In this document: positions 1 to 33,610 of the stretch, one piece after another
Position numbering within the stretch: the stretch's first letter is position 1
How the letters are laid out: every line of letters starts with the position of its first letter
Assembly (NCBI GenBank): GCA_025356475.1
Contig: JANXSX010000082.1
Coordinates: 1 to 34,403 of the forward strand
Direction: 5' to 3'
DNA from: Isosphaeraceae bacterium
Lineage (GTDB): Bacteria; Planctomycetota; Planctomycetia; Isosphaerales; Isosphaeraceae
DNA length: 34,403 nt
Program-made: the position numbers and the translations under genes
The notes under the pieces: model-generated
What the model was told of the DNA's origin: nothing
The model's database searches: none
Seen by the model: the letters and a program-made list of their open reading frames with translations, nothing else

Positions 1-1022
1 ACGACCATCGGGATGTTGTGACCTGGGATCGCGTTTGCTGAGCCATCTTTGTTGTACTTGCCGATACGTGGCCCAAGAATCTTCGCAGTCACCAAGGCCG
101 TGACACCACCGGTCATGTGCACAACGCTTGAACCTGCGAAGTCAACGTGACCATTGCCAAGCCCAAAGTTGGTCCCGAGGTCGGCAAGCCAGCCACCCGC
201 CCAGACCCAACAGCCATAGATCGGGTAGATGAACGCGCAGAGGAAGGCGGAGAACAGGCAGAATCCTGCGAACTTCCAGCGTTCGGCCAAAGCACCGGTT
301 GGAATCGTTGCAGCGGTGTCCATGAACACCATCTGGAACAGGAACAGCACCAGAACCGAAGCATCGTTTGAGTCGCCAGCCAGGGCGAAACCCTTGTAGC
401 CGAAGAGATCGAACGGCTTACCCATGAATTCGAAGGTGAACATTTTGTCGAGCACGTTCGGGCCGTCGAACTGCATGACTGGCCCCCAGCCACCCGCCAT
501 CAGGCCGAAGCCGACGAAATAGAAGCTCAACATACCGATCGCGTAGACCACGAAGTTCATCGCCATGGTATGAGCAACGTTCTTGTGCCGGGTCAGGCCG
601 GTCTCGAGAAGTGCAAAACCCGACTGCATGAACATGACCAAGAAACCGCCGATCAACGTCCAGATGACGTTTGCACCGATCCGGATCATCTTGAGATCTT
701 TGGCCAGAGTCTCCATGGTGACTTTGTCGCCATCTTTGGTGAGTGCCGCCGTTGTGCTGGCACCTTCGCCGGAATAGCTTGCACCCGTCGAGTCCGACTT
801 AGGGGCAGGTCCATAAGGTGCCGGTAGGACCGGGGCGGGGGTCGGAGCGGCAGCGGGGGTTTCCGCACTCGCCGTAGGCGATTCGACTGCCTTGGCTGGC
901 TCCTCAGCCTTTGGGGCGGGGACCGGGTCCTGGCCCCATGTCGTACTCGCAACTAGCCCGGCGAACAGCGCCAAGCCCAGCACGACCGTTGATCCCCACC
1001 ACGACGCTCGTCGACGCATCAT
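1..1022 (-). CDS. amt: Ammonium transporter Amt, C-terminus cut by window edge
   Basis: Inner-membrane Amt/Mep/Rh channel for ammonium uptake. The frame is open from the ATG at 1022 to position 1, giving 340 codons. A GGGAGG ribosome-binding site lies just upstream; a second ATG follows immediately, so the start could be 1019. Residues 1-30 form a signal peptide (Arg-rich, then hydrophobic, ending near TTWGQ). Residues about 31-85 are an Ala/Pro/Glu-rich linker unusual for Amt. The transporter core begins with GFALLETGLTRHKN. The family signature DFAGSSVVHMTGG is present, with Asp294 and His302 spaced exactly like E. coli AmtB Asp160 and His168, so the channel looks functional. The end of the protein, and any glnK partner, lie outside the window. 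Family assignment is very secure; the role of the linker is unknown. Confidence 0.96.
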   Translation of the reverse strand, partial: MMRRRASWWGSTVVLGLALFAGLVASTTWGQDPVPAPKAEEPAKAVESPTASAETPAAAPTPAPVLPAPYGPAPKSDSTGASYSGEGASTTAALTKDGDKVTMETLAKDLKMIRIGANVIWTLIGGFLVMFMQSGFALLETGLTRHKNVAHTMAMNFVVYAIGMLSFYFVGFGLMAGGWGPVMQFDGPNVLDKMFTFEFMGKPFDLFGYKGFALAGDSNDASVLVLFLFQMVFMDTAATIPTGALAERWKFAGFCLFSAFLCAFIYPIYGCWVWAGGWLADLGTNFGLGNGHVDFAGSSVVHMTGGVTALVTAKILGPRIGKYNKDGSANAIPGHNIPMV

Positions 1023-1186
1023 CACTCAAATCCTCCCGCCTGACAGAGAACGACACAACTACAACAAAACCCTCATGGGCTTGTGGGCAGAATGAACAAG
1101 TCGAAGGAGACGAGGGAAATCGGCCTTGCAGACCCGGAGGCACGGCAGCCTCATCGGAAGGCGCACGATACATTTAGAATAGATAT

Positions 1187-1202
1187 TGGAAATCCCGTAC
1201 CA
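1187..1202 (-). promoter_or_regulatory. Possible sigma-54 (-24/-12) promoter upstream of amt
   Basis: On the minus strand TGGTACG is followed after four bases by TTCCA. The -24 half matches the sigma-54 consensus TGGYACG exactly. The -12 half (consensus TTGCW) has C for the normally invariant G. Sigma-54 control is common for ammonium transporter genes, which is why it is listed. The predicted transcript would have a leader of about 150 nt before the ATG at 1022. The mismatch in the key -12 dinucleotide keeps confidence low. Confidence 0.28.
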
Positions 1203-1380
1203 TTTCAGCGGCATTTTTAGTTTTTGGCAAACAATCGACATTACCTTCTTCAATCAAAGGCTTTAGGTCGATTGAATGGACTCGACCTCTCCGATGCATC
1301 CACCCCACCTTGCCAGCTTCGGGTGCAAAGATGCGAGCGAATCGGGCAGACCTGCCCGACACCCGGTTCCTGAAACGAGA

Positions 1381-1419
1381 CGAGCCGCCGACCCCCTCGT
1401 GGAGGGGATCGACGGCTCG
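1381..1419 (-). terminator. Terminator hairpin downstream of the porin gene
   Basis: An 18-base inverted repeat with two mismatches: the left arm starts CGAGCCG, the right arm ends CGGCTCG, and the GC-rich top CCCCTC/GAGGGG closes a 3-base loop. It begins 34 bases after the porin stop codon. The base composition on the minus-strand exit side is only weakly T-rich (TCTCGTTTC), so it is not a textbook intrinsic terminator. Confidence 0.65.
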
Positions 1420-1452
1420 TGAGAGTCCGGAGGGCAGGGCTGGCAACCTGGC

Positions 1453-3063
1453 TCAGAACAGGAAGATCACATCGAAGGCCAGTGTAAACATGCTGTTGCG
1501 TGTCCCGTCACTGTACGGGTGACCCGAACGGGCAAAGTCGTATCGAGCTTCAGGACGGATCCAGATCCAATCCTTAGGCTTGTAGATTGCACCCAAAGTA
1601 AACTCACTGTAATTCGTGGCGATTCCGGTTCGGACACCGTTATTGTCGCGGAAGATTTCACTCCGCCACACGCCTGTCAGCTTGGGAGTGAACTGATAAA
1701 GGAACCAGTTACCGAAGCTGTACCAACCCGCACTCTGTAGCTGCTTGTTCTTCGGCGAGATGGTATTGGCGAATGGGACTGCCTGTTCGTTGGCCTGGTC
1801 GGTCTCCATCACCTGTGTAAATTTATCTGTCCACTTGCGGGTCAAAACGCTTGTGAACAGCACCCGTTGGTCGGCACCATAACCGGTGTTGACCTGGCCA
1901 GCAAACTGCTTGGGTGGGATTGGGGTACCGGTCGGGTAGATCTGAGTCCGGGTTGGGAGATAATTGGGGAACTGGTTCGGGCCCCAGACCGTGGTGAAGG
2001 CGAAGGAAGTCTTGTCGTCTTTGGAAGTCACGCTGAAGCCACCCATGTAGCCCCACTTGTAATTGCTGTTGATCCAGCGGTCCCAACCGTTGATCGCGCC
2101 ATTGTAGATGTTAATCTTGTCGGTCAGGTGGAGCGTGGTCATAGCAGCGAAGTGGGTGAATGGTTGGCCATAGTTGAACATGTAAGGCACGGAGAGCAAG
2201 GGACGGGCCGTGGCAGGAACTTGTTCATAACCGGCCAACGTGTACATGCGGCCACCTTTGATGTCGATGCCCCCTTTTGTCAGCCAAGGCAAGTGAACTT
2301 CACCATAGGCCTGAGCAAGGTCGAAGCCGGAGAAGCCGTTCGTCTTGAACGCGTTGTCGGCGAAACCGTATGCCTTGTTGAACTGCCAGTCGTTCCCGTA
2401 GAGGCTATCCACCCGGAAGCCGAAGTTAATCTCGTCGTTCTGTTCAAGCGGGTTTTCAACGATCAGGTAGTACTGATTACCCTGCCATGAATTGGCCCGG
2501 TGGTTGGGGTTTACACCGAAATTCTCGCCACTCTTGGGACGGCCGTTGGTGTTACCGGTATAGCTGTTTTGCAGCCAACCGTAGATCTTGACCGGCGCAT
2601 CTCCGGGAGCACCGAGAGCCTTCATAAGCAGTGTCGTCGACTCGTTCTTCTTCTCCGCGTCACTGGTGGCCTCCCCCGCTGACGCAACCCCTGTCGGGCT
2701 CCCAGCGCCAAGTTCCCGCTCGGAGGCCGGCAGGGACAGATCCGTATTTGTGTCGATGGGAGAGGGAGGAGCGGGAGCAACGTCGGTCGCAGAGGCGGCC
2801 GGAGCTACTGGAGGTAAGCTCGGGCTCGGATTAGCGGGAACCTGTTGGAGGTCCTCAGTTGTGGCCTGGACCCGGCGAACTCCCGACCCTGTCGTCTTCG
2901 CGACAACCGCTCTTCCGGAAGGAGATATCGCAGTTCCACTCGAGCCCTGTCCCAGGAGTGAGCGGCGAATTGATTCTTGAGCCTGTGAACTGGTCGTGAA
3001 ACAACCGAGCAAACAGGCAAAAGTCGCTAGTGCGACTCCGTTATGTACTCGCTTCATGGACAT
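1453..3063 (-). CDS. BBP2-like outer-membrane beta-barrel porin
   Basis: 536-residue predicted outer-membrane channel. Residues 1-29 are a signal peptide ending SSQAQ. Residues about 30-155 are a Pro/Ser/Ala-rich linker. From about 158 (VKIYGWLQNSYTGN) to the C-terminal Phe the sequence is a barrel of alternating polar and aromatic strands typical of the planctomycete putative beta-barrel porin-2 (OmpL-like) family, for example GFRVDSLYGNDW and GGRMYTLAGYEQ. It ends AFDVIFLF, a terminal aromatic as usual for BAM substrates. The start at 3063 has GAGG eight bases upstream; an in-frame ATG lies two codons later. It precedes amt in the same direction but has its own terminator, so co-transcription is doubtful. 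The solute is unknown. Confidence 0.88.
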   Translation of the reverse strand: MSMKRVHNGVALATFACLLGCFTTSSQAQESIRRSLLGQGSSGTAISPSGRAVVAKTTGSGVRRVQATTEDLQQVPANPSPSLPPVAPAASATDVAPAPPSPIDTNTDLSLPASERELGAGSPTGVASAGEATSDAEKKNESTTLLMKALGAPGDAPVKIYGWLQNSYTGNTNGRPKSGENFGVNPNHRANSWQGNQYYLIVENPLEQNDEINFGFRVDSLYGNDWQFNKAYGFADNAFKTNGFSGFDLAQAYGEVHLPWLTKGGIDIKGGRMYTLAGYEQVPATARPLLSVPYMFNYGQPFTHFAAMTTLHLTDKINIYNGAINGWDRWINSNYKWGYMGGFSVTSKDDKTSFAFTTVWGPNQFPNYLPTRTQIYPTGTPIPPKQFAGQVNTGYGADQRVLFTSVLTRKWTDKFTQVMETDQANEQAVPFANTISPKNKQLQSAGWYSFGNWFLYQFTPKLTGVWRSEIFRDNNGVRTGIATNYSEFTLGAIYKPKDWIWIRPEARYDFARSGHPYSDGTRNSMFTLAFDVIFLF

Positions 3064-3333
3064 GGGCAGAGCCTCACGAAAAGGCCAGATGAGGTAAGTG
3101 GAAGGGTCGGCCAGTCAGGAGAGGACCATTGGCTCAGCGCTGCACGCGCACTCCGCGTAACAGCAACCCACGCCACTTTTATCGGCAGTCCGGTCGGATG
3201 GATTAACCGGCTTTTCACAAGAGCAACGATTCTTGGGGTTTCAACCATTCCGGTTGAATTCACTTTGTCCCCAAAGCCCCAGGCATGTGCGAAGAGTGGA
3301 AACGTTTTGAAAAAACACTCAGACACGATTTGC

Positions 3334-5256
3334 CTAATACCTGTGCAGGTCAGACTGGTTTCCAGCACTGCCGGGGTTTAGCCTCGCGGAGCGTCGGTTC
3401 GAACGCTGCGACTCCTTGGGGGAATCCTCCAGACTTCTCGATTCGCTGTCACGAATCTTCCACTCAACGAGAACGAGCTTGCCACTCCCCGGAACGTGGA
3501 ATCGGGCCGGGGGCATGGGACCTCCTCCTCCTGGTGGTCCAAATTCTTCGAGACGGTCGCCGTCTCCGGGAGGTCGTGGCGGGGGTCCTCCCCAGCCTAA
3601 CCAACCCCGCCTTGGGCCTTCAAATCGAGGTTTGCCTGCTCGTCTCTCAGGACCCCCTCGCTCGGGAGGAGGGCCGCCCCCTCGCCCCGAAACGGCAATA
3701 TCAGCGACCCGGACCCACTCATCGTCATTGTGGAAACGACTCGACACCGACTTGAGCCGATCCTCCGTTGTGATCCAGTACACCTTGTGCCGCCCGCCTG
3801 ACCAATCCGCAAGCTGATTGCGAAAGGCTTCACTCCGCTCGAGAGGACTCAGGATCTCGATCTCTGCGGCCTGATCCTCGGGGCGACCCATTCGTGGTCC
3901 GACAGGGTGGGCGGGGCGGGCTTGGCGATCGAACGACTCCTCGGGCGCGAGCTTCCAGCCCCCGACAAAGTCGAGATGTTGTTGAAGACCACTTTGCGCC
4001 AGGAGCACGCTTCCAGGTTCGACATATTTCTGCAACTCAAGGGTCACATCGGCGAGCACTTGATTATCGTGGCGAAGAGGGAGTAGCTCGAAGATTGAGA
4101 GGGGCAGACCCCAGATCAAGGTCACGATTAACACAATCTTGGTCTGTCTACGACCTCCAGCGAAATCATCATCCGTACGTAGTTTCAAGAACCATACCGC
4201 AGCGATTGTATAGATGAAGAATGTCGGCAATAGAAACCTCATGGAGTTATGACCGGGTCGCCAATAATAGGCCATGTACAAGAGTGTGATGGGCAAGGTC
4301 AGTCCCACCAGAAGCTGACCCTGCCTCTTGGTATCCTGTCGTTTGCAGAGTGCCACCATCCCTCGGATACCTACGATCATGACGTAGCCGACGCCGATCG
4401 TTAGAGTCAGAAAGAGGTAAGGAATGGCATACATCACGAAATAGCCGGGACCGAAGCCTGTCTGCTCTCCTGAGATGCTATACCCTGTTTTCCAGAAGGC
4501 GCCGAAGGCTACCTGATTCCGAACGGCCAGTGCGATCATTGGCAGACCCGCTCCAATAATCCCGACAATGAGTGAGCGATACCCATCCGTTTGCCGCCAT
4601 GTCATGACCACATAACCTGCGCAGGCGAGCACAAACAAAGTCTCCGGGTATCGGATGGTCGGAATCATGCCCAGGCAGAGTCCTGCAAATGCCGACCAGC
4701 CCGCGCCTCGGGTTTGATCCCACTTGGCGAGTCCGAAGAGTCCCCACATGAGAAAGAAGCAAACCGCCGTATGCGAATCCGCCCCAAGTGCGTGCGCATT
4801 CCCGAACGGATTGACGGCCATCAATAGCGCTGCAAGTAGTCCCCAAGCAGGGCCGACCCAATGTCTCACAACCAGGAAGAGCGCCAAGAGTGAGAAGGAC
4901 CCCATCATCGGAATCACGTATAAAGACGCATTTGGACCCGCCGATCGATAGACGATGGCCAGAATCGCAGGCAAGCCGGGTGGATACTGGCCGTAATACT
5001 GATTCGCTCGCGCAAGCATCCAGTGATCGCCGACATATTGGGCTGGCGAAGCGACCATGATGTCCGATCGACTTTCCATCGCGATCAATCGCGCCTGTGC
5101 CAGGTATCCATTGGCGTCCGGCGTCGAGATCGCCGGCGCGAAGAAGCACATCAGTAAGAGAAAATGCATCCCGACCAGGACTGTGATCGCGACTTTTCCG
5201 TCTCCGCACCAACTCCGCTCGCCCTCCTGGAGCACTCCGAGATCACGATCACTCAT
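3334..5256 (-). CDS. GT-C family membrane glycosyltransferase (GT39/ArnT-like)
   Basis: 640-residue integral membrane protein, probably a polyprenyl-phosphate-sugar-dependent glycosyltransferase. The first membrane helix (about residues 22-42) is followed by an extracytoplasmic loop with STPDANGYLAQA, whose Asp47 sits where GT-C enzymes keep a catalytic acidic residue. About ten further hydrophobic segments follow to about residue 400 (for example LLVGLTLPITLLYMAYYW), with the short periplasmic YPPGLP motif seen in ArnT/GT39 relatives. After a soluble segment there is a Gly/Pro/Arg-rich tail (about 545-610, many GGPPP blocks) that is unusual for the family. I chose ATG 5256 because GGAGG stands eight bases before it; a TTG 18 bases upstream lacks a proper site. 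The acceptor cannot be told from sequence. Confidence 0.75.
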   Translation of the reverse strand: MSDRDLGVLQEGERSWCGDGKVAITVLVGMHFLLLMCFFAPAISTPDANGYLAQARLIAMESRSDIMVASPAQYVGDHWMLARANQYYGQYPPGLPAILAIVYRSAGPNASLYVIPMMGSFSLLALFLVVRHWVGPAWGLLAALLMAVNPFGNAHALGADSHTAVCFFLMWGLFGLAKWDQTRGAGWSAFAGLCLGMIPTIRYPETLFVLACAGYVVMTWRQTDGYRSLIVGIIGAGLPMIALAVRNQVAFGAFWKTGYSISGEQTGFGPGYFVMYAIPYLFLTLTIGVGYVMIVGIRGMVALCKRQDTKRQGQLLVGLTLPITLLYMAYYWRPGHNSMRFLLPTFFIYTIAAVWFLKLRTDDDFAGGRRQTKIVLIVTLIWGLPLSIFELLPLRHDNQVLADVTLELQKYVEPGSVLLAQSGLQQHLDFVGGWKLAPEESFDRQARPAHPVGPRMGRPEDQAAEIEILSPLERSEAFRNQLADWSGGRHKVYWITTEDRLKSVSSRFHNDDEWVRVADIAVSGRGGGPPPERGGPERRAGKPRFEGPRRGWLGWGGPPPRPPGDGDRLEEFGPPGGGGPMPPARFHVPGSGKLVLVEWKIRDSESRSLEDSPKESQRSNRRSARLNPGSAGNQSDLHRY

Positions 5257-5578
5257 CACCAGATCCTCCGACAACCTAAGATTCCCAGATTCGATGAGGG
5301 AGAAACCGTAAAATGACCTTCAGAGTTTACCGAGTTGACGCGGAGTCGGACGCCGGCCGAACCTGTCCAGTGGAGCATCCCCCTTCCTTTTGAACACGGA
5401 AGCGTTGCTTCTCGACCACCCACGATGGCTTTGGATTCGTCCAAAAACGAGAGGTGACCGAGGTCGCAACCCGTTGGCGATGGGTGTCGAACAAGATCGT
5501 CGCGTGGACGCGACGCCTCAGTATGGCTACACTCAAGCTCGAATTGGCCACACCGATTTCTCTCGATGGAGACTGAAC
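5257..5578. other. Divergent intergenic region
   Basis: About 320 bases between the start of the glycosyltransferase gene (minus) and the small plus-strand gene at 5579. It contains the ribosome-binding site of the former and the promoter and dyad of the latter (5499-5533). I see no further gene: overlapping open frames lack ribosome-binding sites. Confidence 0.5.
5499..5533 (+). promoter_or_regulatory. Promoter with overlapping dyad for the small basic gene
   Basis: -35-like TGGACG (5505-5510) and -10-like TACACT (5528-5533) are separated by 17 bases. A perfect 7-2-7 palindrome, GTCGCGT-GG-ACGCGAC (5499-5514), covers the -35 element and could be an operator. Expected transcription start near 5540, leaving a leader of about 39 nt before ATG 5579. 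Confidence 0.45.
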
Positions 5579-5719
5579 ATGGTCCGAACTGACTCGTTGA
5601 GGGCTCAGAAGCGACGAAGACGGAATATCAATCGTGCCTTGGCCCGACATCGGCTTCATGAGCTCGGAGTCTCCACCAAGCCCCCAACGACCGAGTCGGT
5701 TGCTGCTACGTCAAAGTGA
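5579..5719 (+). CDS. Small basic protein, 46 residues, unknown function
   Basis: Not recognised. The ATG has GGAGA seven bases upstream. A promoter-like pair lies at the right distance before it, and a perfect 15-bp terminator hairpin starts 50 bases after the stop. That complete set of signals is the main reason to call a gene. The product starts MVRTDSLRAQ, has a dense basic run KRRRRN (residues 11-16) inside a predicted helix to about residue 30, and ends with a Thr/Ser/Ala-rich tail. The charge suggests nucleic-acid or ribosome contact, but that is a guess. A longer in-frame version starting at 5390 has no ribosome-binding site and would cross the promoter. Confidence 0.5.
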   Translation: MVRTDSLRAQKRRRRNINRALARHRLHELGVSTKPPTTESVAATSK

Positions 5720-5769
5720 CTCGATCTGCCATTTGTTTGAGAGTTGGGTCCGCGTCTCGGACCGAATCG

Positions 5770-5808
5770 CGAAAACGGGAGCGGCGCTAAGTCCCGCTCC
5801 CGTTTTCG
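5770..5808 (+). terminator. Strong intrinsic terminator
   Basis: Perfect 15-bp inverted repeat (CGAAAACGGGAGCGG and its complement) with a 9-base loop, followed by TTTC. The A-rich foot of the left arm and T-rich foot of the right arm make it usable mainly on the plus strand. The only plausible gene it serves is the 46-codon frame ending at 5719. Confidence 0.8.
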
Positions 5809-5827
5809 TTTCATAGAGCGATTTGAG

Positions 5828-5836
5828 TGGTATACT
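5828..5836 (+). promoter_or_regulatory. Extended -10 promoter candidate upstream of the repeat array
   Basis: TG-G-TATACT forms an extended -10 element, with TTTCAT about 16 bases upstream as a weak -35. It lies just beyond the terminator and before the tandem array, so a transcript starting near 5843 would run through the repeats towards aspS. Based on motif only. Confidence 0.35.
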
Positions 5837-6004
5837 GAATTGCTCAGCGCAATCCCAGGTATTTCCACGCGCAGAGCATGAAGTTGAGGACACCAGTCAG
5901 CTTGCGAGCGGTTCGGACTCTCGATCGAACGTGTAGACCAACTCTCACCGAGTCCGTGGTGACCAAACAGACCCAATCGGGGGTATCGACTCCAGGCCCA
6001 CATT

Positions 6005-6388
6005 ACGAATTGAACCCAATTTGTGGCGAGGTCTCATTACTACGGATCGAACCCAATTTCGGACGACTCCAGCCAAACTGCGAATCGAACCCAATTTCTG
6101 ACGTCCTTGAGCAAACTACAAATCGAACCCAATCTACAACCCGGTTGACTCCGAGTGCGAATCGAACCCAATTTTGGATCAGCTAGGTCGGGCTACCAGC
6201 CAAACTGCGAATCGAACCCAATTTTGGGCCTCTCGGGGCAAACTACGAATCGAACCCAATTTCCACCCGGCGGATTCTGAATACGAATCGAACCCAATTT
6301 CGGACGTCTCTCGGCCAACTACGAATCGAACCCAATTTCGGACGAGGTCGGGCTGGCTACCGGCCAAACTGCGAATCGAACCCAATTT
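6005..6388. repeat. Ten-copy interspersed tandem repeat, 18-bp core, about 38-bp period
   Basis: The core RCGAATCGAACCCAATTT begins at 6005, 6042, 6080, 6118, 6157, 6207, 6245, 6283, 6321 and 6371. Spacings are 37, 38, 38, 39, 50, 38, 38, 38 and 50. Most cores differ from consensus at 0-2 positions. The in-between segments (about 20 bases) are degenerate relatives of each other and often end CAAACT just before the next core. The two 50-base steps both carry an extra GGTCGGGCT segment, giving a higher-order unit of about 164 bases. On the minus strand the core reads TTGGGTTCGATTCG, which resembles a tRNA T-arm sequence without the partner stem. It is not a coding repeat, since 38 is not a multiple of three. 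Function unknown. Confidence 0.95.
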
Positions 6389-24001: not shown

Positions 24002-25645
24002 TTAAGGCGATGCACGGGGCAAATCCCTTTCGGGAACTGTTCCCGGAGACGTCGCTGGCTCTGTGAGAAGTAGGCGAGGTGCGAACGGACCAGGTCTATT
24101 TGAAAGAATGTTAGCACGAGAAGCATCTCGACCGCTTGGCCTGATTTCCGCTTCGGGAGGCGGCAAAGGCGTTTCGGCTTGGGCGGTCAGTTCGATACCA
24201 ACGGCGCGTTCCAGGGATGCGAGGGCTTTCCCGAGTTCCGACTCGACCTGAGCGATTTGAAGCTCGACCTGGAGTACTTCACGCCATGCGCTGATCAGCG
24301 TGAGGTAGTCGACGTTGCCGGTCCGATAATCGTTCGCGGCGATTTCTAGGGCTTGCCGGCTCCTTGGCAATATGCGAGCACGAAGTAGTTCAAGAATCTC
24401 GCGCTGGGCTTTTGCTTGAATCATCAAATCTTTGATTTCGCGGTATGTTTTATCTCGCTCCGACTCAAAGAGTTGAGAATCCGCACGAGTACGGGCCTGC
24501 GCTTCTTGGACACCGGCATCGAGTTTTTTGTGGTAGATTGGCATGTTGAAACCGACGAACAGGCCAGCGTTATCCCGGCCATCGGCAGCAGGGGAAGCGG
24601 CATTCCGCTTGGTCATTAGGCCATAGTTCACACCGAGCGTGATATTTGGATAATAGCGTTTTCTCGCGAGATCGACTGCTCGTTCGTCGCGTGCAACGGC
24701 GGCGAGCCTCCCTTGAAGTTCCGGTTTAGCGAATGCAGCGAGACGATAGAGCTCGTCGATGGCGGTGGGCACAGCACTCGGTGGAAGCGCTTCGAGAGCC
24801 TGGAGTTCGGCTTCGGGACTGATATGAAGTTGTTGCGCAAGATCGGCACGAGCCGTCGCAAGCGATTGCCGAGTCGTGACTAACTCACGATCAAGGTCGG
24901 CCAAGAGGACCTCAGCGCGAAGCACATCCTGCTGACTTGTCGAACCGGTTTCGTAACGTTTTCGAGCGAGGTCGATAAAATCAAGGACGAGCGCTCGGTT
25001 CTCACTCAGGATCGTCTCGGCGCGGCCATTGAAGAATAAGTCGTAGTAGCCCCTCTTGATCGTCGCGACGACGTCCAACTCAGCAGCCGCCAACTCGGCG
25101 ATTGCCACATCTACGTCGGCCGCAGCAGCAGCCCCTCGTAAGCGTAGGGTGCCCAACCAAGGAAACTGTTGCGCGATCATCATTTCGTAGGGCATGTATC
25201 CCATCAGCGAATACTGAGGGCCGTTTGATGGGAATGGAAAGATTGTGTTAGAGACCACGGGATCTTCTAAGGAAGTCACCTGTGGTATCCGAGCCCTCAT
25301 CGCCTCAACATTCGATCGAGCAGCTCGGACGGTGCGGTTCTCGATCAAAGCTCGTCTGAGGAAGATCTCGACAGGCTGAGGACCTGTAAGCTCGGATGGG
25401 GTCGGGATTGAGAGCGGGTCGGTAACGACGGCCAACGGAGTCGATCGCCGTATCTGATGCTCAAAGCCAGTGCGCTTCAGGTTGGAATCTGAGAGGGCAG
25501 GGCTTGGGCCTTTTCTCGAAGAGACGGAAGTTCGATCGATCGGGGTGCTCGAGACGACTAGCTCGTTCCGAGCTGCTAGACCAGCGCAACCACACAGTGA
25601 TGTCACGCATGCAATGATGAAGAACTTGGGCCATCGTAACTTCAT
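24002..25645 (-). CDS. TolC/CusC-family outer-membrane efflux lipoprotein
   Basis: 547 residues, the outer-membrane duct of an RND metal-efflux complex. The signal peptide ends in a lipobox-like LCGC with Cys20 as probable lipidation site. Two OEP repeats are visible: the first around 110-290 (AAAADVDVAIAELAAAELDVVATIKRGYYDL, RKRYETGSTSQQDVLRAEV) and the second around 300-480 (DLARKRYYPNITLGVNYGL, ANDYRTGNVDYLTLISAWREVL). The repeated YETGS/YRTGN pattern is typical of the coiled-coil hairpins. It is divergent from the CusB/CusA-like operon, 251 bases apart, and probably supplies its outer-membrane partner. Confidence 0.9.
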   Translation of the reverse strand: MKLRWPKFFIIACVTSLCGCAGLAARNELVVSSTPIDRTSVSSRKGPSPALSDSNLKRTGFEHQIRRSTPLAVVTDPLSIPTPSELTGPQPVEIFLRRALIENRTVRAARSNVEAMRARIPQVTSLEDPVVSNTIFPFPSNGPQYSLMGYMPYEMMIAQQFPWLGTLRLRGAAAAADVDVAIAELAAAELDVVATIKRGYYDLFFNGRAETILSENRALVLDFIDLARKRYETGSTSQQDVLRAEVLLADLDRELVTTRQSLATARADLAQQLHISPEAELQALEALPPSAVPTAIDELYRLAAFAKPELQGRLAAVARDERAVDLARKRYYPNITLGVNYGLMTKRNAASPAADGRDNAGLFVGFNMPIYHKKLDAGVQEAQARTRADSQLFESERDKTYREIKDLMIQAKAQREILELLRARILPRSRQALEIAANDYRTGNVDYLTLISAWREVLQVELQIAQVESELGKALASLERAVGIELTAQAETPLPPPEAEIRPSGRDASRANILSNRPGPFAPRLLLTEPATSPGTVPERDLPRASP

Positions 25646-26367: not shown

Positions 26368-26556
26368 TCTGGCTCTCGCGTCTTGGGTCAAGGCAATCGC
26401 CTTGCAACCTTAGGCGTCCGCGCGTATTGGCTTCCCGCAGCCGAGCGTTGCAACGCCCCTACGCCCCGCCTCAGTCGTCACGTTTCTCGACCGAGCGGTT
26501 CAGGTGACGTTCTCCGAACAACTATTGTTCCGAGTACGTCGCTGGGAGCACGATCC

Positions 26557-28260
26557 ATGTCTTCGACAACGAATGGCCTTCCAGGCCTTGATTCTTCGTC
26601 TGCGCCTTCGGTAGTGCCCCTCTCAAGGTGGCAAAAAATCCGGATGGTGGTCAAGGTCGTCGAGCTACGGCTCCGCTTTATCGCCCTAATGGCGGCCACT
26701 GGCCTGATTTTTGGCTATTGGGACACGATTAAGAACCACTATGAGAAATGGACTCGCCCTCCAGGTGTGATCCATTCTGCCGCGTCGGATACTGAGTTTT
26801 ATTGTCCGATGCATCCGACCGTAATCCAGCCGACGCCGGGGAGTTGCCCGATCTGTGGGATGCCCCTCTCGAAGCGGAAAATCGGCGAGAAGGAAACACT
26901 TCCTATCGGTGTGACTGCAAGGGTCCGTTTGGCGAGCTCACGGATCGAGCAGGCTGGGGTCAAGACGGTGGAGATCAGTTACGAGCCGCTTGCCGAAACG
27001 ATCACCACGGTCGGATCGGTGGTGATCGACGAGCGACGTCTCAAACGGATCTCGTCAAAGATTCGTGATCGAGTGCGTGTTGAATCTCTGTTTGTCAACT
27101 TTACTGGCATAACGGTGAAGGCAGGCCAACCCCTCGCTGAAGTCTATGGCCCGGAACTTTATCAGGCGACACGGGAACTGCTCCTGGCTCAACAGAGGGC
27201 GAACCAACCTGTTGTGGCTTCTCGGAGCGAACTTGGCCGAACCGTTCTTGGTCGCCCCGACGAGTTATTGAATGCCTCGCGACAAAAGCTCGTACTTTGG
27301 GGACTCTCAGACGTTCAAATTGATGAAATTCTGGTCAAAGGTGTCGCATCAACCAAGATGCCGATCCTTTCACCTATTGACGGTGTCGTTGTGAAGAAAA
27401 ATGTGGTCGAAGGTCAATACATTATGGAAGGGGAGGCGATGTTCGAAATCGCTGACCTTACTCATGTCTGGGTCCAAGCCCAAATCTATGAAGACCAGAT
27501 CGACCTGGTTCGTGTTGGCCAGTCTGTCGAAGCCAAGGTTGAAACCTATCCTGGCCAGATCTTTCGTGGAGTCGTGGCGTTCCGCGACCCGGTCCTGAAT
27601 CCTCAGACGCGGACCGTCAATGTTCGCTATGACCTCGACAATGCCGATGGCCGACTCATGCCGGGAATGTTCGCGACCGTAACTTTCGCCACACCCGTAG
27701 CTGAGACACCGGCGTTTCGTGACCTGCTCGCTCATATGCCCGCTCCCAAGGATCTGACGCGCAGGGTGAGCCTGACGGTTGATGAGCAAAAGCTCTGCCT
27801 GGTCACCAATCTCAAGCTCGGCTCGATGGGAGATCCGGTAGCAATTGAGATCGAAGGCAAGAAGATTTGGATGTGTTGCGACAACTGCGAGACCCAACTC
27901 AAGGCAAATCCGGCAAAATTCCTCACAAGACTCGCGGGACCGCCAAAAGACGGAGTACTGGCGGTGCCGGAATCGGCTGTCATTGATACGGGAACCCGGC
28001 AGATCGTTTATGTCGAGGTCGAGCCAGGTGTTTATGAAGGACGGGTTGTGGTTCTTGGGGCACTCTCAGGTGACGTCTACCCCGTCCTCTCGGGACTTTT
28101 TCTCGGTGACCGAGTTGCGACTGCCGGTTCATTTCTGATCGATGCCGAGACACGATTGAATGCGTCCCCCGGACCGGTCGCAATTCCTCCATCAGGTGAA
28201 CAGCCTCCCGTCGCAGTCGTACCCGCCGCTGTGTCGAAGACGTCTACACACGTTCACTAA
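26557..28260 (+). CDS. cusB: CusB-like periplasmic adaptor with two metal-binding modules
   Basis: 567 residues, membrane-fusion subunit linking the RND pump to the outer-membrane duct. An N-terminal membrane helix (about 39-54) is followed by a heavy-metal-binding domain with CPMHP and CPICGM (Cys83, Cys97, Cys100). The HlyD-type body follows: lipoyl halves (VNFTGITVKAGQPLAEVYGP; ILSPIDGVVVKKNVVEGQYI), hairpin 200-270, and barrel to about 385. An extra ~80-residue insert then carries Cys414, LGSMGDP and C440-C441-x-x-C444 before the usual VLAVPESAVIDTGTRQIVYVE end. ATG 26557 has GGGAG ten bases upstream; a longer frame from 26383 adds Arg-rich residues with no site. Ends in HVH, 23 bases before the pump gene. 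Confidence 0.92.
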   Translation: MSSTTNGLPGLDSSSAPSVVPLSRWQKIRMVVKVVELRLRFIALMAATGLIFGYWDTIKNHYEKWTRPPGVIHSAASDTEFYCPMHPTVIQPTPGSCPICGMPLSKRKIGEKETLPIGVTARVRLASSRIEQAGVKTVEISYEPLAETITTVGSVVIDERRLKRISSKIRDRVRVESLFVNFTGITVKAGQPLAEVYGPELYQATRELLLAQQRANQPVVASRSELGRTVLGRPDELLNASRQKLVLWGLSDVQIDEILVKGVASTKMPILSPIDGVVVKKNVVEGQYIMEGEAMFEIADLTHVWVQAQIYEDQIDLVRVGQSVEAKVETYPGQIFRGVVAFRDPVLNPQTRTVNVRYDLDNADGRLMPGMFATVTFATPVAETPAFRDLLAHMPAPKDLTRRVSLTVDEQKLCLVTNLKLGSMGDPVAIEIEGKKIWMCCDNCETQLKANPAKFLTRLAGPPKDGVLAVPESAVIDTGTRQIVYVEVEPGVYEGRVVVLGALSGDVYPVLSGLFLGDRVATAGSFLIDAETRLNASPGPVAIPPSGEQPPVAVVPAAVSKTSTHVH

Positions 28261-28283
28261 GCGACCAAGGAAGGAGGTTGGGG

Positions 28284-31200
28284 ATGATTGAGAACATCAT
28301 CGAGTGGTCGATTCGTAATCGCTTCCTCGTCATAATCGCCGCACTTGCAGTGGGTATCGCGGGCACACGTGCCGCCATGACAATGCCGGTTGACGCGATT
28401 CCTGACCAGTCCGAAAACCAGGTGATTGTCTTTACCGACTGGATGGGCCGAAGCCCCCAGGAGATCGAAGATCAGGTCACTTATCCACTTTCGGTCAATC
28501 TCCAAGGATTATCGGGAGTCAAGGTTGTCCGGTCGTCTAGCGAGTTCAATTTCTCGATGATCAGTGTGATCTTTGACGAATCGACCGACTATTATTTCGC
28601 CCGCCAACGTGTACTCGAACGCTTATCGATCGCCTCGACGTTTTTACCTCCTGGCGTAATTCCATATCTCGCGCCTGATGCGACGGCTGTCGGCCAAATC
28701 TTCTGGTACACGCTCGAATCCGATGAGGGAATGGATCTGGGAGAACTCCGGGCCATCCAGGATTGGTACGTTCGCTACCAGCTCAACTCGGTCCCTGGAG
28801 TGGCCGAGGTTGCGAGTGTGGGGGGTGCCCCTCGCGAATATCAAATCGATCTCGATCCCAACAAGCTCCGGGCGTACGGCATCAGCCTTGGCGAGGTGGA
28901 TCTGGCCGTCGCTCGCTCGAATTCCTCGGTAGGAGGTCGAGTCATCCATAAAGGCAATGCGGAGTATCTGATCCGCTCGGTGGGATGGATTAAGGGTGTT
29001 GAGGACCTGAGACAAACTGTGATTGCGGAGCGACAGGGAGTTCCAATTTATCTGAAAACGGTGGCCACGGTTCAGCTTGGACCGTCGTTCAAGCGGAGTG
29101 TCCTGGAGAAGGATGGCAAAGAGGTCGTTGGTGGCGTCGTTGTGATGCGCTATGGGGAGAACCCTCTCGAAGTGACCCGCAAGGTCAAGGAGAAGATCTC
29201 CACACTCTCGACAGGGCTTCCTGCGGGAGTGCGGATCGTTCCGTTCTATGACAGGACGCCACTGATCAAGAAGGCGATGGCCACAATAATTGATACGGTC
29301 AAAGAGGAATTGACCATTTCCACAGTAGCCATTCTCTTGATCATGGGTCACCTCGGAGGCGCGTTTATTGTATCAATCACACTGCCACTGGCGATTCTTT
29401 TTAGCTTTCTGATGATGAAGTTGTTCGGTATCCCGTCGAATATCATGAGTCTCGCAGGGATTGCGATCAGCGTTGGGATTCTTGAAGATCAAGCCGTCGT
29501 CATGACTGAGAATGCCGCGCATCATTTGACCAAGCACTTCGGTCAACAACGGATCACTGGCGATGTTCTTCATATTATCATCCCTGCCTGCCGGACTGTA
29601 GGGCGGCCCATTTTCTTCTCGGTATTGATCACGATTCTTTCATTCCTGCCGGTATTCGCTCTGACAGGCAGATCCGGAAAGCTTTTTCATCCACTCGCGT
29701 ATACCAAGACGTTCGCACTGATTGGTGTCGCGGTCCTGGCGATTACTTTGGTTCCAGCTCTGATTCCGATTTTCCTTCGAGGGCGAATCAAGTCGGAGGA
29801 TGAGAGTTGGTTGGTTCGAACGATGATCGCCATCTTCAAGCCAATGCTTTCCTGGTTGATGGATCGCCCCACACTCGTCTGCTGGCTATTCGCTTGCATC
29901 TTAGGATGTGGATATCTTGCATCCACAAGACTCGGGTCGGAATTTGTGCCTCCGCTGGATGAGGGCTCGATCCTCGACATGCCGACGAGTGTACCTCGAA
30001 TGTCAGTGACGCAGGCAGCAGCCGATCTGAAAGCTCGTGACGCCATCCTACGGGGCTTTCCCGAAGTTACGATGGTTGTCGGCAAAGCGGGAAGGGCCGA
30101 AACCCCGACCGATCCCTCTCCGCTCGACATGGTCGAGACCGTCATCAACTTGCGTGATCGCGAGTTTTGGCCCAAACGAAAGCTGAAATTCGAAGATGCA
30201 GTAAGCCAGACTATGGCGGCTTTCGCGATGTTGGAGTCACAGGGTGTGCTTCAGCCGATCAGCAAGGAAGATCGCGAAGCCCTCATCAACGATTCTGCAA
30301 TGGAGGTTGTGTCTCGAGTGGACGCGACGTTGCGTGATCTGGCGCTCCTCCGACTCAAGGAACATCGCCCAGAGCTTGGGCTGATCCTCGTTCGTGAAGC
30401 CATCAATGAGTTGCTCAAACGAGTCGATCCGTCCGCAGTCTTTCGGTCAGCAACGGCAGTGGAGCGAACTGAGCTTGAGAGGACACTGGCGGCGATTTAT
30501 GGATCCCGGCTCGCTCTTGACCCTGCTCACGATGATGTCGCCGGCCTGCTCAAAGAGACCGCTCGGCGGTTGGTTGACCTCGGAGTTCTTCACCAAAAGC
30601 CGGACTTGCTATCGCCTCAGCCGACGACCTGGGAACGGACCGAGGCTCTGGTTGGTGGCTTGCTTGGTGCGGTTCCGAGCACCTTTTACGACAGGATGAC
30701 CGAGCACGTTGCAGCCACCCACGATGACGAGTTTCGAGCCAAGATGAAGACCTTGAATTGGGAACTCTTCGATCGTGCCGTGGGAGACGCAACCTTCGCT
30801 GCACTCGACGAACTTGCACATAAGGCCAAGGACCGGAAGTTTGTGTTGCGCGAACCGACCGCCGAGGAACTGAAAACCTACCGTGCCAAGTTAGAAAAGC
30901 CATTTGGCGATCGGCTCTTCCTTTGGCAGAAGGGGAAACAGGATCTCGTGGACGAGATGGCCTCAACTCTGCAGGTCCCTGGGTGGGGGAACATCTTCAC
31001 CCAGCCGATCATCAATCGAATCGAAATGCTCGCCACGGGCGTGCGGACCCCAGTTGCGGTGAAGGTCTTCGGCGACAACTTGGATACAATTCAGCAGGTC
31101 AGCCAGGAAATCGCGGCGGTCTTGCGAGGAGTTCGAGGGGCGAGCGGAGTGGTGCCGGACCAAATTGTCGGCAAGGGTTATATCGAGATCGACATCGACC

Positions 31201-32297
31201 GCGCCAAAGCGGCTCGGTACGGAATCCAGGTCGGTGACATTCAAGATGTGGTGGATGTCGCGCTTGGCGGCAAGCCATTGACCGTGACTGTCGAAGGACG
31301 CCGCCGATTCCCTGTACGTGTGCGTTATGCTCGTGATTTCCGAACCGACGAAAAGTCGCTCGGGCGCTTACTCGTGGCCGCACGTGGCGCTGGTGGGGGG
31401 GCAAGCGGGGACTCGCCCGGAGGAATGGGCATGGGTTCAGCCCCTGCAGTAAATTCGGGAGGCGCAACGACAACGCCTCTTCAAGTGCCGCTGGCGGAGG
31501 TCACCACGATCCGGGTCGTTGAAGGCCCGTCAATGATCAAGAGTGAAAATGGACTGTTACGTTCTTATGTGCAATTAACAGTAACGGGTCGGGATGAAGT
31601 CGGTTTCGTAGATGAGGCGAGAAGGGTTGTCTCGGAGAAGGTCAAGCTTCCCGAGGGGATGTACATCGAGTGGTCCGGGCAGTTCGAGAACGAACTGAAG
31701 ACGCGAAAGACCTTGCAAATCGTCTTTCCCGCTGTGGCTGCGATCATCGTGCTGATCCTCTATCTAACCTACAAGAGTTGGGTCGATGCGATGCTTATGA
31801 TGACCAGTGTACTTGGAGCACTCGCCGGAGGAGCGATCTTTCAGTGGGCCTTCGGCTTCAACTTCAGTGTCGCGGTTTGGGTTGGCTACATTGCATGTTT
31901 TGGCATGGCGACGGAGACCGGAATCGTCATGCTCGTTTACTTGCGTGAAGCTGTTGACGAACGCGGAGGCCTGAGCGCAATTCGCTCGGTCGCTGAACTG
32001 CGAGAGGCGATTCTTAATGGAGCCATCCACCGGCTACGCCCTAAGCTTCTAACCGAAGGCACCACGATTATCTCGATCGCGCCGATGCTCTGGGCGACTG
32101 GCGTTGGTTCGGAGATTGTCCGACCCATGGCGGCCCCTGTACTGGGCGGATTATTGATCGCTGACGAAGTCATTGATGTTTTCTTACCAGTGCTTTACTT
32201 CGCCGCGAAGAAGTGGCAGTGGAGAAAGCTCCACGGTCTCGGGCCTCTTGATGATCAACGGATTTTGGACATTGCAACAGAGGCCGTACCGTCATGA
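28284..32297 (+). CDS. cusA: CusA/CzcA-family heavy-metal RND efflux pump with large porter insertion
   Basis: 1337 residues; relatives are usually about 1030-1070. It uses the proton gradient to expel metal ions from cytoplasm or periplasm. N-terminal MIENIIEWSIRNRFLVI and PVDAIPDQSENQVIV are typical. The TM4 relay keeps Asp402 and Glu409 (ILEDQAVVMTEN) and lacks the extra Asp of divalent-metal pumps, as in Cu/Ag-type pumps. Met566 (DMPTSVP), Met616 (LDMVETV) and Met915 (IEMLATG) match the E. coli CusA Met573/623/672 triad, with the first interval (50) identical. The second is 299 instead of 49, because about 250 helical residues (630-880) are inserted between two tryptophan-containing segments. 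A second Gly-rich insert (GGMGMGSAP) lies near 1040. AAGGAGG is six bases before ATG 28284. Confidence 0.93.
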   Translation: MIENIIEWSIRNRFLVIIAALAVGIAGTRAAMTMPVDAIPDQSENQVIVFTDWMGRSPQEIEDQVTYPLSVNLQGLSGVKVVRSSSEFNFSMISVIFDESTDYYFARQRVLERLSIASTFLPPGVIPYLAPDATAVGQIFWYTLESDEGMDLGELRAIQDWYVRYQLNSVPGVAEVASVGGAPREYQIDLDPNKLRAYGISLGEVDLAVARSNSSVGGRVIHKGNAEYLIRSVGWIKGVEDLRQTVIAERQGVPIYLKTVATVQLGPSFKRSVLEKDGKEVVGGVVVMRYGENPLEVTRKVKEKISTLSTGLPAGVRIVPFYDRTPLIKKAMATIIDTVKEELTISTVAILLIMGHLGGAFIVSITLPLAILFSFLMMKLFGIPSNIMSLAGIAISVGILEDQAVVMTENAAHHLTKHFGQQRITGDVLHIIIPACRTVGRPIFFSVLITILSFLPVFALTGRSGKLFHPLAYTKTFALIGVAVLAITLVPALIPIFLRGRIKSEDESWLVRTMIAIFKPMLSWLMDRPTLVCWLFACILGCGYLASTRLGSEFVPPLDEGSILDMPTSVPRMSVTQAAADLKARDAILRGFPEVTMVVGKAGRAETPTDPSPLDMVETVINLRDREFWPKRKLKFEDAVSQTMAAFAMLESQGVLQPISKEDREALINDSAMEVVSRVDATLRDLALLRLKEHRPELGLILVREAINELLKRVDPSAVFRSATAVERTELERTLAAIYGSRLALDPAHDDVAGLLKETARRLVDLGVLHQKPDLLSPQPTTWERTEALVGGLLGAVPSTFYDRMTEHVAATHDDEFRAKMKTLNWELFDRAVGDATFAALDELAHKAKDRKFVLREPTAEELKTYRAKLEKPFGDRLFLWQKGKQDLVDEMASTLQVPGWGNIFTQPIINRIEMLATGVRTPVAVKVFGDNLDTIQQVSQEIAAVLRGVRGASGVVPDQIVGKGYIEIDIDRAKAARYGIQVGDIQDVVDVALGGKPLTVTVEGRRRFPVRVRYARDFRTDEKSLGRLLVAARGAGGGASGDSPGGMGMGSAPAVNSGGATTTPLQVPLAEVTTIRVVEGPSMIKSENGLLRSYVQLTVTGRDEVGFVDEARRVVSEKVKLPEGMYIEWSGQFENELKTRKTLQIVFPAVAAIIVLILYLTYKSWVDAMLMMTSVLGALAGGAIFQWAFGFNFSVAVWVGYIACFGMATETGIVMLVYLREAVDERGGLSAIRSVAELREAILNGAIHRLRPKLLTEGTTIISIAPMLWATGVGSEIVRPMAAPVLGGLLIADEVIDVFLPVLYFAAKKWQWRKLHGLGPLDDQRILDIATEAVPS

Positions 32298-32379
32298 ACC
32301 ACCCCAACCTCGCACGAAGTACCCCAGGGACTTGCCCCTACTCCAGCATTGCCTTGTCTTACCGATGAGAGTCGAGCTT

Positions 32380-32407
32380 GGGGCTCTCGTCGTGTGACGA
32401 GAGCCCC
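32380..32407 (+). terminator. Terminator after the RND pump gene
   Basis: Perfect 12-bp stem GGGGCTCTCGTC/GACGAGAGCCCC with loop GTGT, followed by TTCCTT. It begins 83 bases after the pump stop codon and separates it from the next gene at 32441. Confidence 0.8.
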
Positions 32408-32440
32408 TTCCTTGACAGTGACATGAGGAGTTTGCGACCA

Positions 32441-33610
32441 ATGAAATCAATGCTAGTAACGGTTCTGGGGTTGATCAATCTAAGCTCAGCAGCCTCGACT
32501 GAGGTCTCGGGAGCGCCATTTCCCGTCGTGACGGTCACCGTGATCGGCCAGGAAGATCAAGGGGCCAAGCAACCGCAGGCCGTGGTTGACGAGGAAGGTC
32601 GAATTTTCGTCACTTTCGGAGTCAAAGACACGATCCGCTGCGCGACCTCGACTGATGAGGGCAAGACCTTTCAAGCGACCACTGTCGGATCCGCTGGAAA
32701 GCTCGCGCTCGGCATGAGACGAGGACCGAGGATTGCCGTTGCCGGTGGGACGCTCGTTGTGAGCGCTATCGTCGGAGCAACCGGGAATGGTCGAGATGGT
32801 GATCTCCTGGCCTGGCGATCGACGGATCAGGCCAAGACATGGACGGGGCCGACACGTGTAAACTCCGTCGATGGTTCGGCGAGAGAGGGATTGCATGGCA
32901 TGGCCGGGGGCCCTGACGGCTCAATTTACTCTGTGTGGCTCGACCTGCGGAGCAAGAAAACGGAACTCTATGGTGCTCGCTCGGTTGACGGTGGACTCAC
33001 TTGGGAAGCCGATCGACTCATTTATCGCTCCCCGGATGGAAGCATCTGTGAATGCTGCCATCCATCTGTCTGCATCGCTCCGGATGGGACACTTCATGTG
33101 ATGTGGCGAAACAGTCTTAACAGCGCAAGAGATCTCTACGCCTTGAGTTCCAAGGATGGAGGGAAAACATTTAACGCTGCCGAGAAGCTCGGGCAGGAAT
33201 CCTGGTCGTTGAAAGCCTGCCCAATGGATGGAGGGGCCATCGCCGTTGGTCCCGCGAACAAGGTGGAGACGATCTGGATGAGGGAGGGGGCGATCTTCGA
33301 GGCAAGACCAGGCCAGCCAGAACGTAAATTAGGTCCTGGATTCCAGGGATGGGTTGCGTACGGTTCAGCAGGCCCCTTCGCTGCCTGGCTGGGTCAGCGA
33401 TCGGGACCACTCATGATACAAATTCCTACCGAGTCAAAGCCCTTTGTTCTGGCGAATGAAGCAGGCAGCCCGATGGTCACCAGCAGCCCAAATGGACGAG
33501 ATCCTATTGTTGTCGTCTGGGAAGCGAAACCGGAAGCCGGGGGAATCCTCGCGGCAGTTCTCTCACCCGCTCAGGAGCAACAAGCTCCCGTCCCCAAGAT
33601 CAAGAAATGA
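32441..33610 (+). CDS. Exported sialidase-fold (BNR repeat) protein with CxCC motif
   Basis: 389 residues. A short signal peptide (MKSMLVTVLGLINLSSAAST) leads a beta-propeller with Asp-box-like repeats: STDEGKTF, STDQAKTWTG, SVDGGLTWE and SKDGGKTF. Sialidase catalytic Arg triad and Tyr/Glu pair are not evident, so a glycosidase role is doubtful. Instead it has C203-E-C-C206-H-P-S-V-C211 and a later CPMDGG (Cys260), both placed at strand ends where they could meet in the propeller centre as a metal site. ATG 32441 has AGGAG ten bases upstream; ATG 32423 would overlap that site. It lies between the RND pump and a metal-module protein, which supports a metal-related role by context only. Confidence 0.75.
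   Translation: MKSMLVTVLGLINLSSAASTEVSGAPFPVVTVTVIGQEDQGAKQPQAVVDEEGRIFVTFGVKDTIRCATSTDEGKTFQATTVGSAGKLALGMRRGPRIAVAGGTLVVSAIVGATGNGRDGDLLAWRSTDQAKTWTGPTRVNSVDGSAREGLHGMAGGPDGSIYSVWLDLRSKKTELYGARSVDGGLTWEADRLIYRSPDGSICECCHPSVCIAPDGTLHVMWRNSLNSARDLYALSSKDGGKTFNAAEKLGQESWSLKACPMDGGAIAVGPANKVETIWMREGAIFEARPGQPERKLGPGFQGWVAYGSAGPFAAWLGQRSGPLMIQIPTESKPFVLANEAGSPMVTSSPNGRDPIVVVWEAKPEAGGILAAVLSPAQEQQAPVPKIKK

Follow-up and report, generated by a model that had tools for sequence, protein, structure and literature searches.

The window, that is the whole 34,403-nucleotide stretch of DNA that was analysed (Isosphaeraceae bacterium, contig JANXSX010000082.1), carries genes for a CusA-like metal pump, a periplasmic adaptor and an outer-membrane factor, with the following features:

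24002..25645, minus strand: outer-membrane factor (TolC/CusC-like), divergent (PF02321 OEP, E 3.9e-36)
26383..28260, plus strand: CusB-type periplasmic adaptor, 625 aa from TTG, true start may be later (HlyD_D23, E 7.3e-69)
26797..26868, plus strand: HMBD metal-binding motif in the adaptor (PF19335, E 1.5e-09)
27715..27957, plus strand: TRASH/YHS-like Cys domain spliced into the adaptor at the junction of barrel and membrane-proximal parts (adaptor alignment)
28278..32297, plus strand: CusA-like HME-RND pump with arm, 1339 aa from TTG
29979..29981, plus strand: M568, equivalent to CusA M573 (metal triad; alignment to CusA)
30129..30131, plus strand: M618, equivalent to CusA M623 (metal triad; alignment to CusA)
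31026..31028, plus strand: M917, equivalent to CusA M672 (metal triad; alignment to CusA)

The adaptor gene lies directly upstream of the pump gene, and the neighbourhood thus holds both a CusB-type adaptor and a TolC-type outer-membrane factor. The Cys domain of the adaptor scored below the curated cut-off of 27 against Arc_trans_TRASH (E 0.0047, 17.4 bits). Directly downstream of the pump gene, and possibly in the same operon, is a gene for a BNR-repeat (sialidase-like) protein (32378-33610, plus strand). The pump is encoded in a single open frame that begins at either TTG 28278 or ATG 28284, with its stop ending at 32297. The ATG is the more likely start, as it would fit the N terminus of CusA (MIE). 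Residue numbers below follow the TTG unless marked ATG; those of an earlier sequence-only reading, which began at the ATG, are two lower. The window contains no N bases and the third-position GC of the pump gene is 0.61 both upstream of the insert described below and within it.

The pump matches TIGR00914, the CusA/CzcA family model, well above the curated cut-off of 701.45 bits (E 5.2e-296, 984.6 bits) and its best solved relative is E. coli CusA (E 6.6e-233). The top Pfam family is ACR_tran (2.3e-208), with MMPL at 0.0081 and 15.6 bits falling under its cut-off of 20.5, such that the pump lies outside the HAE-2/MmpL sequence family. A model of pump residues 3-1150, which leaves the C-terminal transmembrane part outside it, has the CusA fold, with 813 residues aligned to 4dnt_A at Z 50.9 and rmsd 2.7 (VIA-align) and a Foldseek E of 1.5e-75 to the same chain. 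Alignment to E. coli CusA falls into three blocks (query 3-632, 889-1031 and 1067-1315), separated by the insert at 633-888 and by a smaller gap near 1032-1066. The intervals between the triad methionines are 50 and 299 residues in the pump and 50 and 49 in CusA, confirming the sequence-only reading that the first interval is conserved and that about 250 residues, 250 by the CusA alignment, are added between the second and third methionines. With E620 equivalent to the metal-binding E625 of CusA, the three-methionine site and its nearby glutamate are present, and all three methionines are invariant in an alignment of 51 rows; the insertion sits in PC1 beside an intact triad, as had been proposed. 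From these residues the pump is of the CusA type, with a predicted Cu(I)/Ag(I) specificity. It shares with CusA of E. coli (PDB 3k07, 3ne5, 4dnt) the fold of the modelled part, the methionine triad, E625, the proton-relay D405 and the adjoining adaptor and outer-membrane factor genes, but has the arm where CusA has six residues between the aligned blocks. Six of the CusA relay methionines were checked, of which M391 and M410 are kept while M271, M403, M486 and M501 are replaced. The PC1 subdomain of the pump is interrupted by the 250 residues between β3 and α2; because the family model is matched, this insertion is read as a variation within the HME-RND family.

The inserted arm can be divided as follows:

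30168..30926, plus strand: inserted arm, residues 631-883, between β3 and α2 of PC1 (CusA alignment; model secondary structure)
30189..30239, plus strand: root helix A, residues 638-654 (AlphaFold model)
30264..30422, plus strand: long helix 1 of the mast, residues 663-715, with conserved M675, D682, R686 and E695 (model; conservation)
30423..30683, plus strand: head, residues 716-802, with helices 727-747, 751-767 and 784-795; absent in some relatives (model; length variation)
30684..30833, plus strand: long helix 2, residues 803-852, with conserved E829 and D832 (model; conservation)
30861..30914, plus strand: root helix B, residues 862-879 (AlphaFold model)

In the pump model, PC1 runs from β3 (617-623) through the arm to α2 (885-895; ATG numbering), placing the arm between the tryptophan of the LKPQEQW segment of CusA and the start of α2. 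The splice lies 13 residues past M618, beyond the end of β3, which does not bear out the suggestion that the arm arises from the metal-binding cleft itself. AlphaFold modelling of the insert with short flanks (267 residues, from a 48-row alignment, A2) gave a mean pLDDT of 92.6 and a pTM of 0.82, with helices of 17 and 53 residues, then a three-helix head, then helices of 50 and 18 residues. The same elements were found in place in the model of pump residues 3-1150 (51 rows; pLDDT 82.2, pTM 0.77), in which ten-residue block means across the arm (631-880, ATG numbering) were 84-95 but fell to 80, 81 and 76 for the part of the head at 771-800. The two models, together with a DEKR content of 31.6% in the arm against 19.8% in the remaining pump, uphold the description of the insertion as helical and charged. 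As modelled, the arm is a root bundle, made of the two short helices and the lower parts of the two long ones, that bears a hairpin mast and a head. From their order and length, the long helices 663-715 and 803-852 would pack as an antiparallel hairpin, in which case R686 would face D832; at 1.5 Å per residue, helices of about 50 residues give a mast of about 75 Å. The arm would stand at the outer face of PC1, given that the helices of porter subdomains lie on the outside, as a survey of the fold describes (PMC8277102).

Searches for a known domain in the arm returned little. Neither Pfam nor NCBIfam gave a meaningful match to the insert (top NCBIfam E 0.17), and a Pfam scan of 32 arms returned ten families, each matching one arm (best E 0.002). 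A profile of the arm searched against PDB sequences found no RND chain, the best match being a sugar ABC ATPase at E 0.02, a likeness that was taken as chance. With the insert model alone, Foldseek found no structure at E 0.001 (best 0.58) and the best VIA Z score was 5.3, a level that helical bundles reach by chance. As the arm is a helical bundle, this absence of fold matches is no evidence either way on the novelty of the fold.

The distribution of the arm was followed with both pump-based and arm-based searches. Scanning genome contigs with six search peptides, one of which lay within the arm, identified 25 pump loci, of which 16 had the arm, one was cut before the site and eight were armless, the latter coming from Ignavibacteria/Kapabacteria, Akkermansiaceae, a Desulfococcaceae and a proteobacterial record. 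An arm profile (A1) matched in 38 of 45 genomes of the window's family, its own genome included, in 100 of 297 genomes of its class and in 22 of 392 of its phylum, the last count including one weak match in a short frame (G235); a single-sequence arm query matched in 19 of the same number. Few candidates were scored per genome, making these counts lower bounds. Outside the Planctomycetota, the profile gave two matches in 145 genomes of the phylum of the Akkermansiaceae genome and one in 198 of that of the Ignavibacteria genome, all weak and in short frames, and none in 148 genomes of the phylum of the Desulfococcaceae genome or in a run of 198 centred on G653, the genomes of which were largely those of the Desulfococcaceae-phylum sample. 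The frames of these three matches and of the G235 match are 372-460 aa long, too short for a pump, and the matches were taken as chance. An empty profile search shows little where the sample holds no known match; the same profile does match in Planctomycetota. Among the samples searched, which outside the Planctomycetota represent three phyla with Pseudomonadota as such not among them, an arm within a pump was therefore found in Planctomycetota only. Spread of the arm by plasmids was considered and set aside, as the insert had no match in 72,556 plasmid records although relatives of the pump are frequent in them, occurring in at least 5000. The culturable planctomycete Singulisphaera acidiphila is one of the carriers of the arm (L019). 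Three arm contigs (L016-L018) are titled Candidatus Kuenenia stuttgartiensis; for L016 the record title looks wrong, its genome having an arm match at the same coordinates as G475, a genome of the window's family.

In a tree of 91 pumps, a branch with support 100 separates all 62 arm rows from the armless Met-triad pumps and the CzcA-type pumps. The tree was a quick one (LG+G4, SH-aLRT only, insert columns excluded) with several long branches among the armless rows. Identical rows, rows of fewer than 900 residues and near-copies or repeats (L002, L016, L018, L037, L057-L059, L062-L064, L077, L085 and L116-L120) were left out. Among the rows examined, the arm clade contained no armless pump; many of its rows (L034-L076) came from arm queries, which biases the sample against such pumps, and the loci found with the whole pump (the 25-locus scan and the author-chosen L081-L115) give the same split between arm and armless rows. 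On this tree the arm was acquired once, in one branch of planctomycete pumps, and then kept. The alignment of planctomycete pumps that had been proposed to gauge its spread finds it spread over Planctomycetota, with all 62 arm rows in one tree group, and the occurrence of homologous inserts in many independent genomes, with their rows grouped in the tree, dismisses an assembly artefact or frame error. The proviso that a known RND subfamily, with a described function, might normally have this segment holds in its first half, the arm being normal in a planctomycete subclade; no such description was found in the literature searched. At the same site in PC1, L029 (Desulfococcaceae), L095, L100 and L102 have other insertions of 28-70 residues, which lie outside the arm clade and by eye are unlike the arm; this suggests a site that may tolerate insertions repeatedly. 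None of 14 CzcA-type rows had an arm-like insert, with the 70-residue insertion of L102 being a different one.

Within the arm, conservation is concentrated in a few residues. W631, R634 and R686 are invariant in all 62 arms, D682 is aspartate in 60 and glutamate in two, E829 is kept in 58, E695 in 56 and D832 in 54, while W883 is tryptophan in 53 and M675 is methionine in 45 and glutamine in 11. The earlier proposal that Trp629 and Trp881 (here W631 and W883) mark a duplicated edge did not survive alignment, in which W631 aligns with the tryptophan of most armless pumps (LKPxxxW) and W883 is characteristic of the arm clade. Over 61 rows, the core has a mean identity to the window of 0.68, compared with 0.36 in the arm and 0.28 in the head, which evolves fastest; the ratio of arm to core divergence has a median of 1.9 over 61 rows. 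R686 and E829 are 143-150 residues apart in most rows, whereas the six rows of one clade (support 100), which has lost mast and head, have a spacing of 43-46. Those six rows retain W631, R634, R686 and E695, with aspartate at D682 in five and glutamate in one, while E829 is kept in three, D832 in two and M675 in none. Two further outliers have short masts, with spacings of 69 (L052) and 28 (L022), and retain W631, R634 and R686; L022 keeps all conserved positions while L052 has alanine at 695 and glutamine at 832. The spacing of 114 in the plus-strand pump of L013 has unread bases within it. One other clade has a longer base loop, with 78 residues between E829 and W883 compared to about 54. 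W631, R634 and R686 are kept even where mast or head has been lost, so that part of the root stays constant in this alignment and the mast and head are dispensable. In the mast-less clade (L089-L093 and the minus-strand pump of L013) the loop after long helix 2 is longer, often with pairs or triplets of histidine, and a possible extra metal site near the root of the arm could be formed by this loop.

The loss of the mast goes together with a reduction of the adaptor. Where the mast is full or nearly full (R686-E829 spacing of at least 114), all 36 readable adaptors have lipoyl and hairpin regions, the hairpin stretch being 59-80 residues; L011, truncated at the end of its contig, and four loci without an adaptor are not in this count. 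In the mast-less clade, six of whose twelve pumps are in the tree, 12 of 12 adaptors are without both regions. These counts include near-copies such as L017 and L018. The same genome as the window has a pump of this kind on another contig (C26, locus L089), where a 1302-aa pump with a mast-less, headless arm (703-4611, minus strand) lies beside an adaptor of 486 aa (4656-6116, minus strand) without lipoyl and hairpin regions; this adaptor has HMBD and TRASH-like motifs, of which Pfam finds the HMBD only, and no outer-membrane factor was found within 8.5 kb. Eleven further systems share this kind of pump and adaptor. An outer-membrane factor was found near none of 11 mast-less loci (of 12 systems) and near 22 of 32 full-mast loci (of 36), using a profile grown from the window's own factor on the stretch around each locus, by which distant ones may be missed. 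Counter-examples are L022 and L052 (seen with its adaptor as L121), in which a short mast is accompanied by an intact adaptor; L121 still has an outer-membrane factor; near L022, on a contig that ends a short way upstream, none was found. The mast-less clade being a single branch, the correlation between mast and adaptor column amounts essentially to one evolutionary event and is no more than suggestive.

The metal-binding domains of the adaptor are less closely tied to the arm. At least one HMBD motif is present in the adaptors of all 34 arm systems and in 8 of 13 armless Met-triad systems, and a TRASH-like motif in 27 of 34 and 2 of 13 respectively, while the adaptors of CzcA-type pumps (14 pump rows) have neither. 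With HMBD also found without the arm and the TRASH-like motif variable, these domains were rejected as strict partners of the arm. The modules also vary in place, lying in the loop from barrel to membrane-proximal domain in the window and its near relatives, while L085 has three copies at the C terminus of its adaptor.

Insertions into porter folds have been described previously. In the available text of one survey (PMC8277102), the insertion points are limited, mainly to β2-β3, with small β-hairpins at β1-α1 and α2-β4 in SecDF, and β3-α2 was not found among them. The P1 head of SecDF and other decorated porter folds likewise carry an extra domain inside the β-α-β-β-α-β fold, as the same text describes (PMC8277102). 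A comparable case is MmpL5, a mycobacterial HAE-2 RND pump, whose second periplasmic domain contains an antiparallel helical hairpin that is likewise long and of about the same size (PMC12501195), as the arm would if its long helices pair. The coiled coils of MmpL4 and MmpL5 differ from the arm in lying at β2-β3, as stated in PMC8277102, rather than at β3-α2, and the arm unlike them has a root bundle and a helical head. A search of the literature on planctomycete CusA and on HME-RND insertions, with most subscription journals outside its scope, found no description of the arm. The arm would appear to be a helical accessory domain at an insertion point previously unlisted for this pump family, although a description may already be in print elsewhere.

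Since one clade lacks mast, adaptor column and outer-membrane factor alike, the arm is tentatively viewed, at somewhat less than even probability, as a rigid root with a mast that braces or docks the adaptor, serving as an assembly or coupling device. The root would form a rigid extension of PC1, from which the mast may run along the exterior of the pump towards the periplasmic adaptor, the direction and the partner both being putative. There it would brace or dock the lipoyl/hairpin column of the adaptor, or its metal-loaded HMBD/TRASH domains, and this contact would keep the trans-envelope complex together, with metal moved by the ordinary CusA cycle and the arm outside the ion path. When the adaptors of one clade lost the column, the mast may have been lost and the root have stayed. 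Of the two roles offered in the sequence-only reading, gating access or docking a partner, the second is the one that the comparative data favour. Several observations count against it, including the intact adaptors beside the short masts of L022 and L052/L121, a root that is not whole everywhere (the mast-less rows, and L052 without E695 and D832) and the HMBD adaptors found with armless Met-triad pumps (8 of 13). The head, at an identity of 0.28 against 0.68 for the core, is the fastest-evolving part, which would be odd for a tip that docks specifically.

The main rival, judged unlikely, places the function at the root, immediately ahead of a helix contributing to the PC1 wall of the metal cleft, from where the arm would act as a lever or gate, biasing opening and closing or limiting access of metal. 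The splice directly before α2 would allow this, as copper binding to E. coli CusA swings PC2 30 degrees from PC1 (PMC8092243), and W631, R634 and R686 of the root are always retained when the mast is not. The arm begins, however, beyond the end of β3, the triad is identical in Met-triad pumps with and without it, a 75 Å mast is superfluous for a gate, and the loss of the mast alongside reduction of the adaptor is left unexplained. Anchoring of mast and head to peptidoglycan, an outer-membrane protein or another planctomycete-specific periplasmic partner would suit a long, charged arm with a variable head found in pumps of Planctomycetota only, among the samples searched. It is considered quite improbable, given that no Pfam family is matched by more than one of 32 arms and that no significant fold match was found. 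The 196-residue coiled-coil insertion in the second periplasmic domain of MmpL5, modelled as a six-helix tube of about 13 nm and needed for efflux (PMC12501195), raises the idea that the three hairpins of the trimer form a helical barrel conducting or guiding substrate. Mycobacteria are without TolC-type machinery (PMC12501195), while the present pump, with its CusA fold over residues 3-1150 and adjoining adaptor and outer-membrane factor genes, already has a conduit; the different insertion point and a head that is the least conserved part and sometimes missing also make such a tube very unlikely. That the arm is a neutral or selfish elongation, tolerated without function, is in keeping with its 1.9-fold divergence and with mast or head missing in three lineages. 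Invariant residues, near-constant spacing across the phylum and an arm clade free of armless pumps in the rows examined, many of which came from arm queries, render it the most improbable of these readings. A brace or dock for the adaptor is favoured over a gate at the cleft or a tube like that of MmpL5.

Taken further, a brace or dock of this kind raises the possibility, doubtful at present, that each pump sends three masts to the adaptor or the outer-membrane channel as a built-in scaffold, pump and adaptor having co-evolved, and that loss of column and factor took the mast with it, leaving a two-component pump that possibly delivers to the periplasm and has a metal-binding stub for an adaptor. 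The cell envelope of planctomycetes is much debated. RND pumps have been regarded as a fixed fold with few places at which extra parts are spliced in, and the arm is a conserved, clade-wide accessory domain at another such place, in one of the best-studied pump families. The existence of pumps with a full mast, with no head and with no mast provides a natural experiment on what holds a three-part efflux machine together, in which the mast-less clade with its hairpin-less adaptors is a case where an RND metal pump may have dispensed with its outer-membrane channel.
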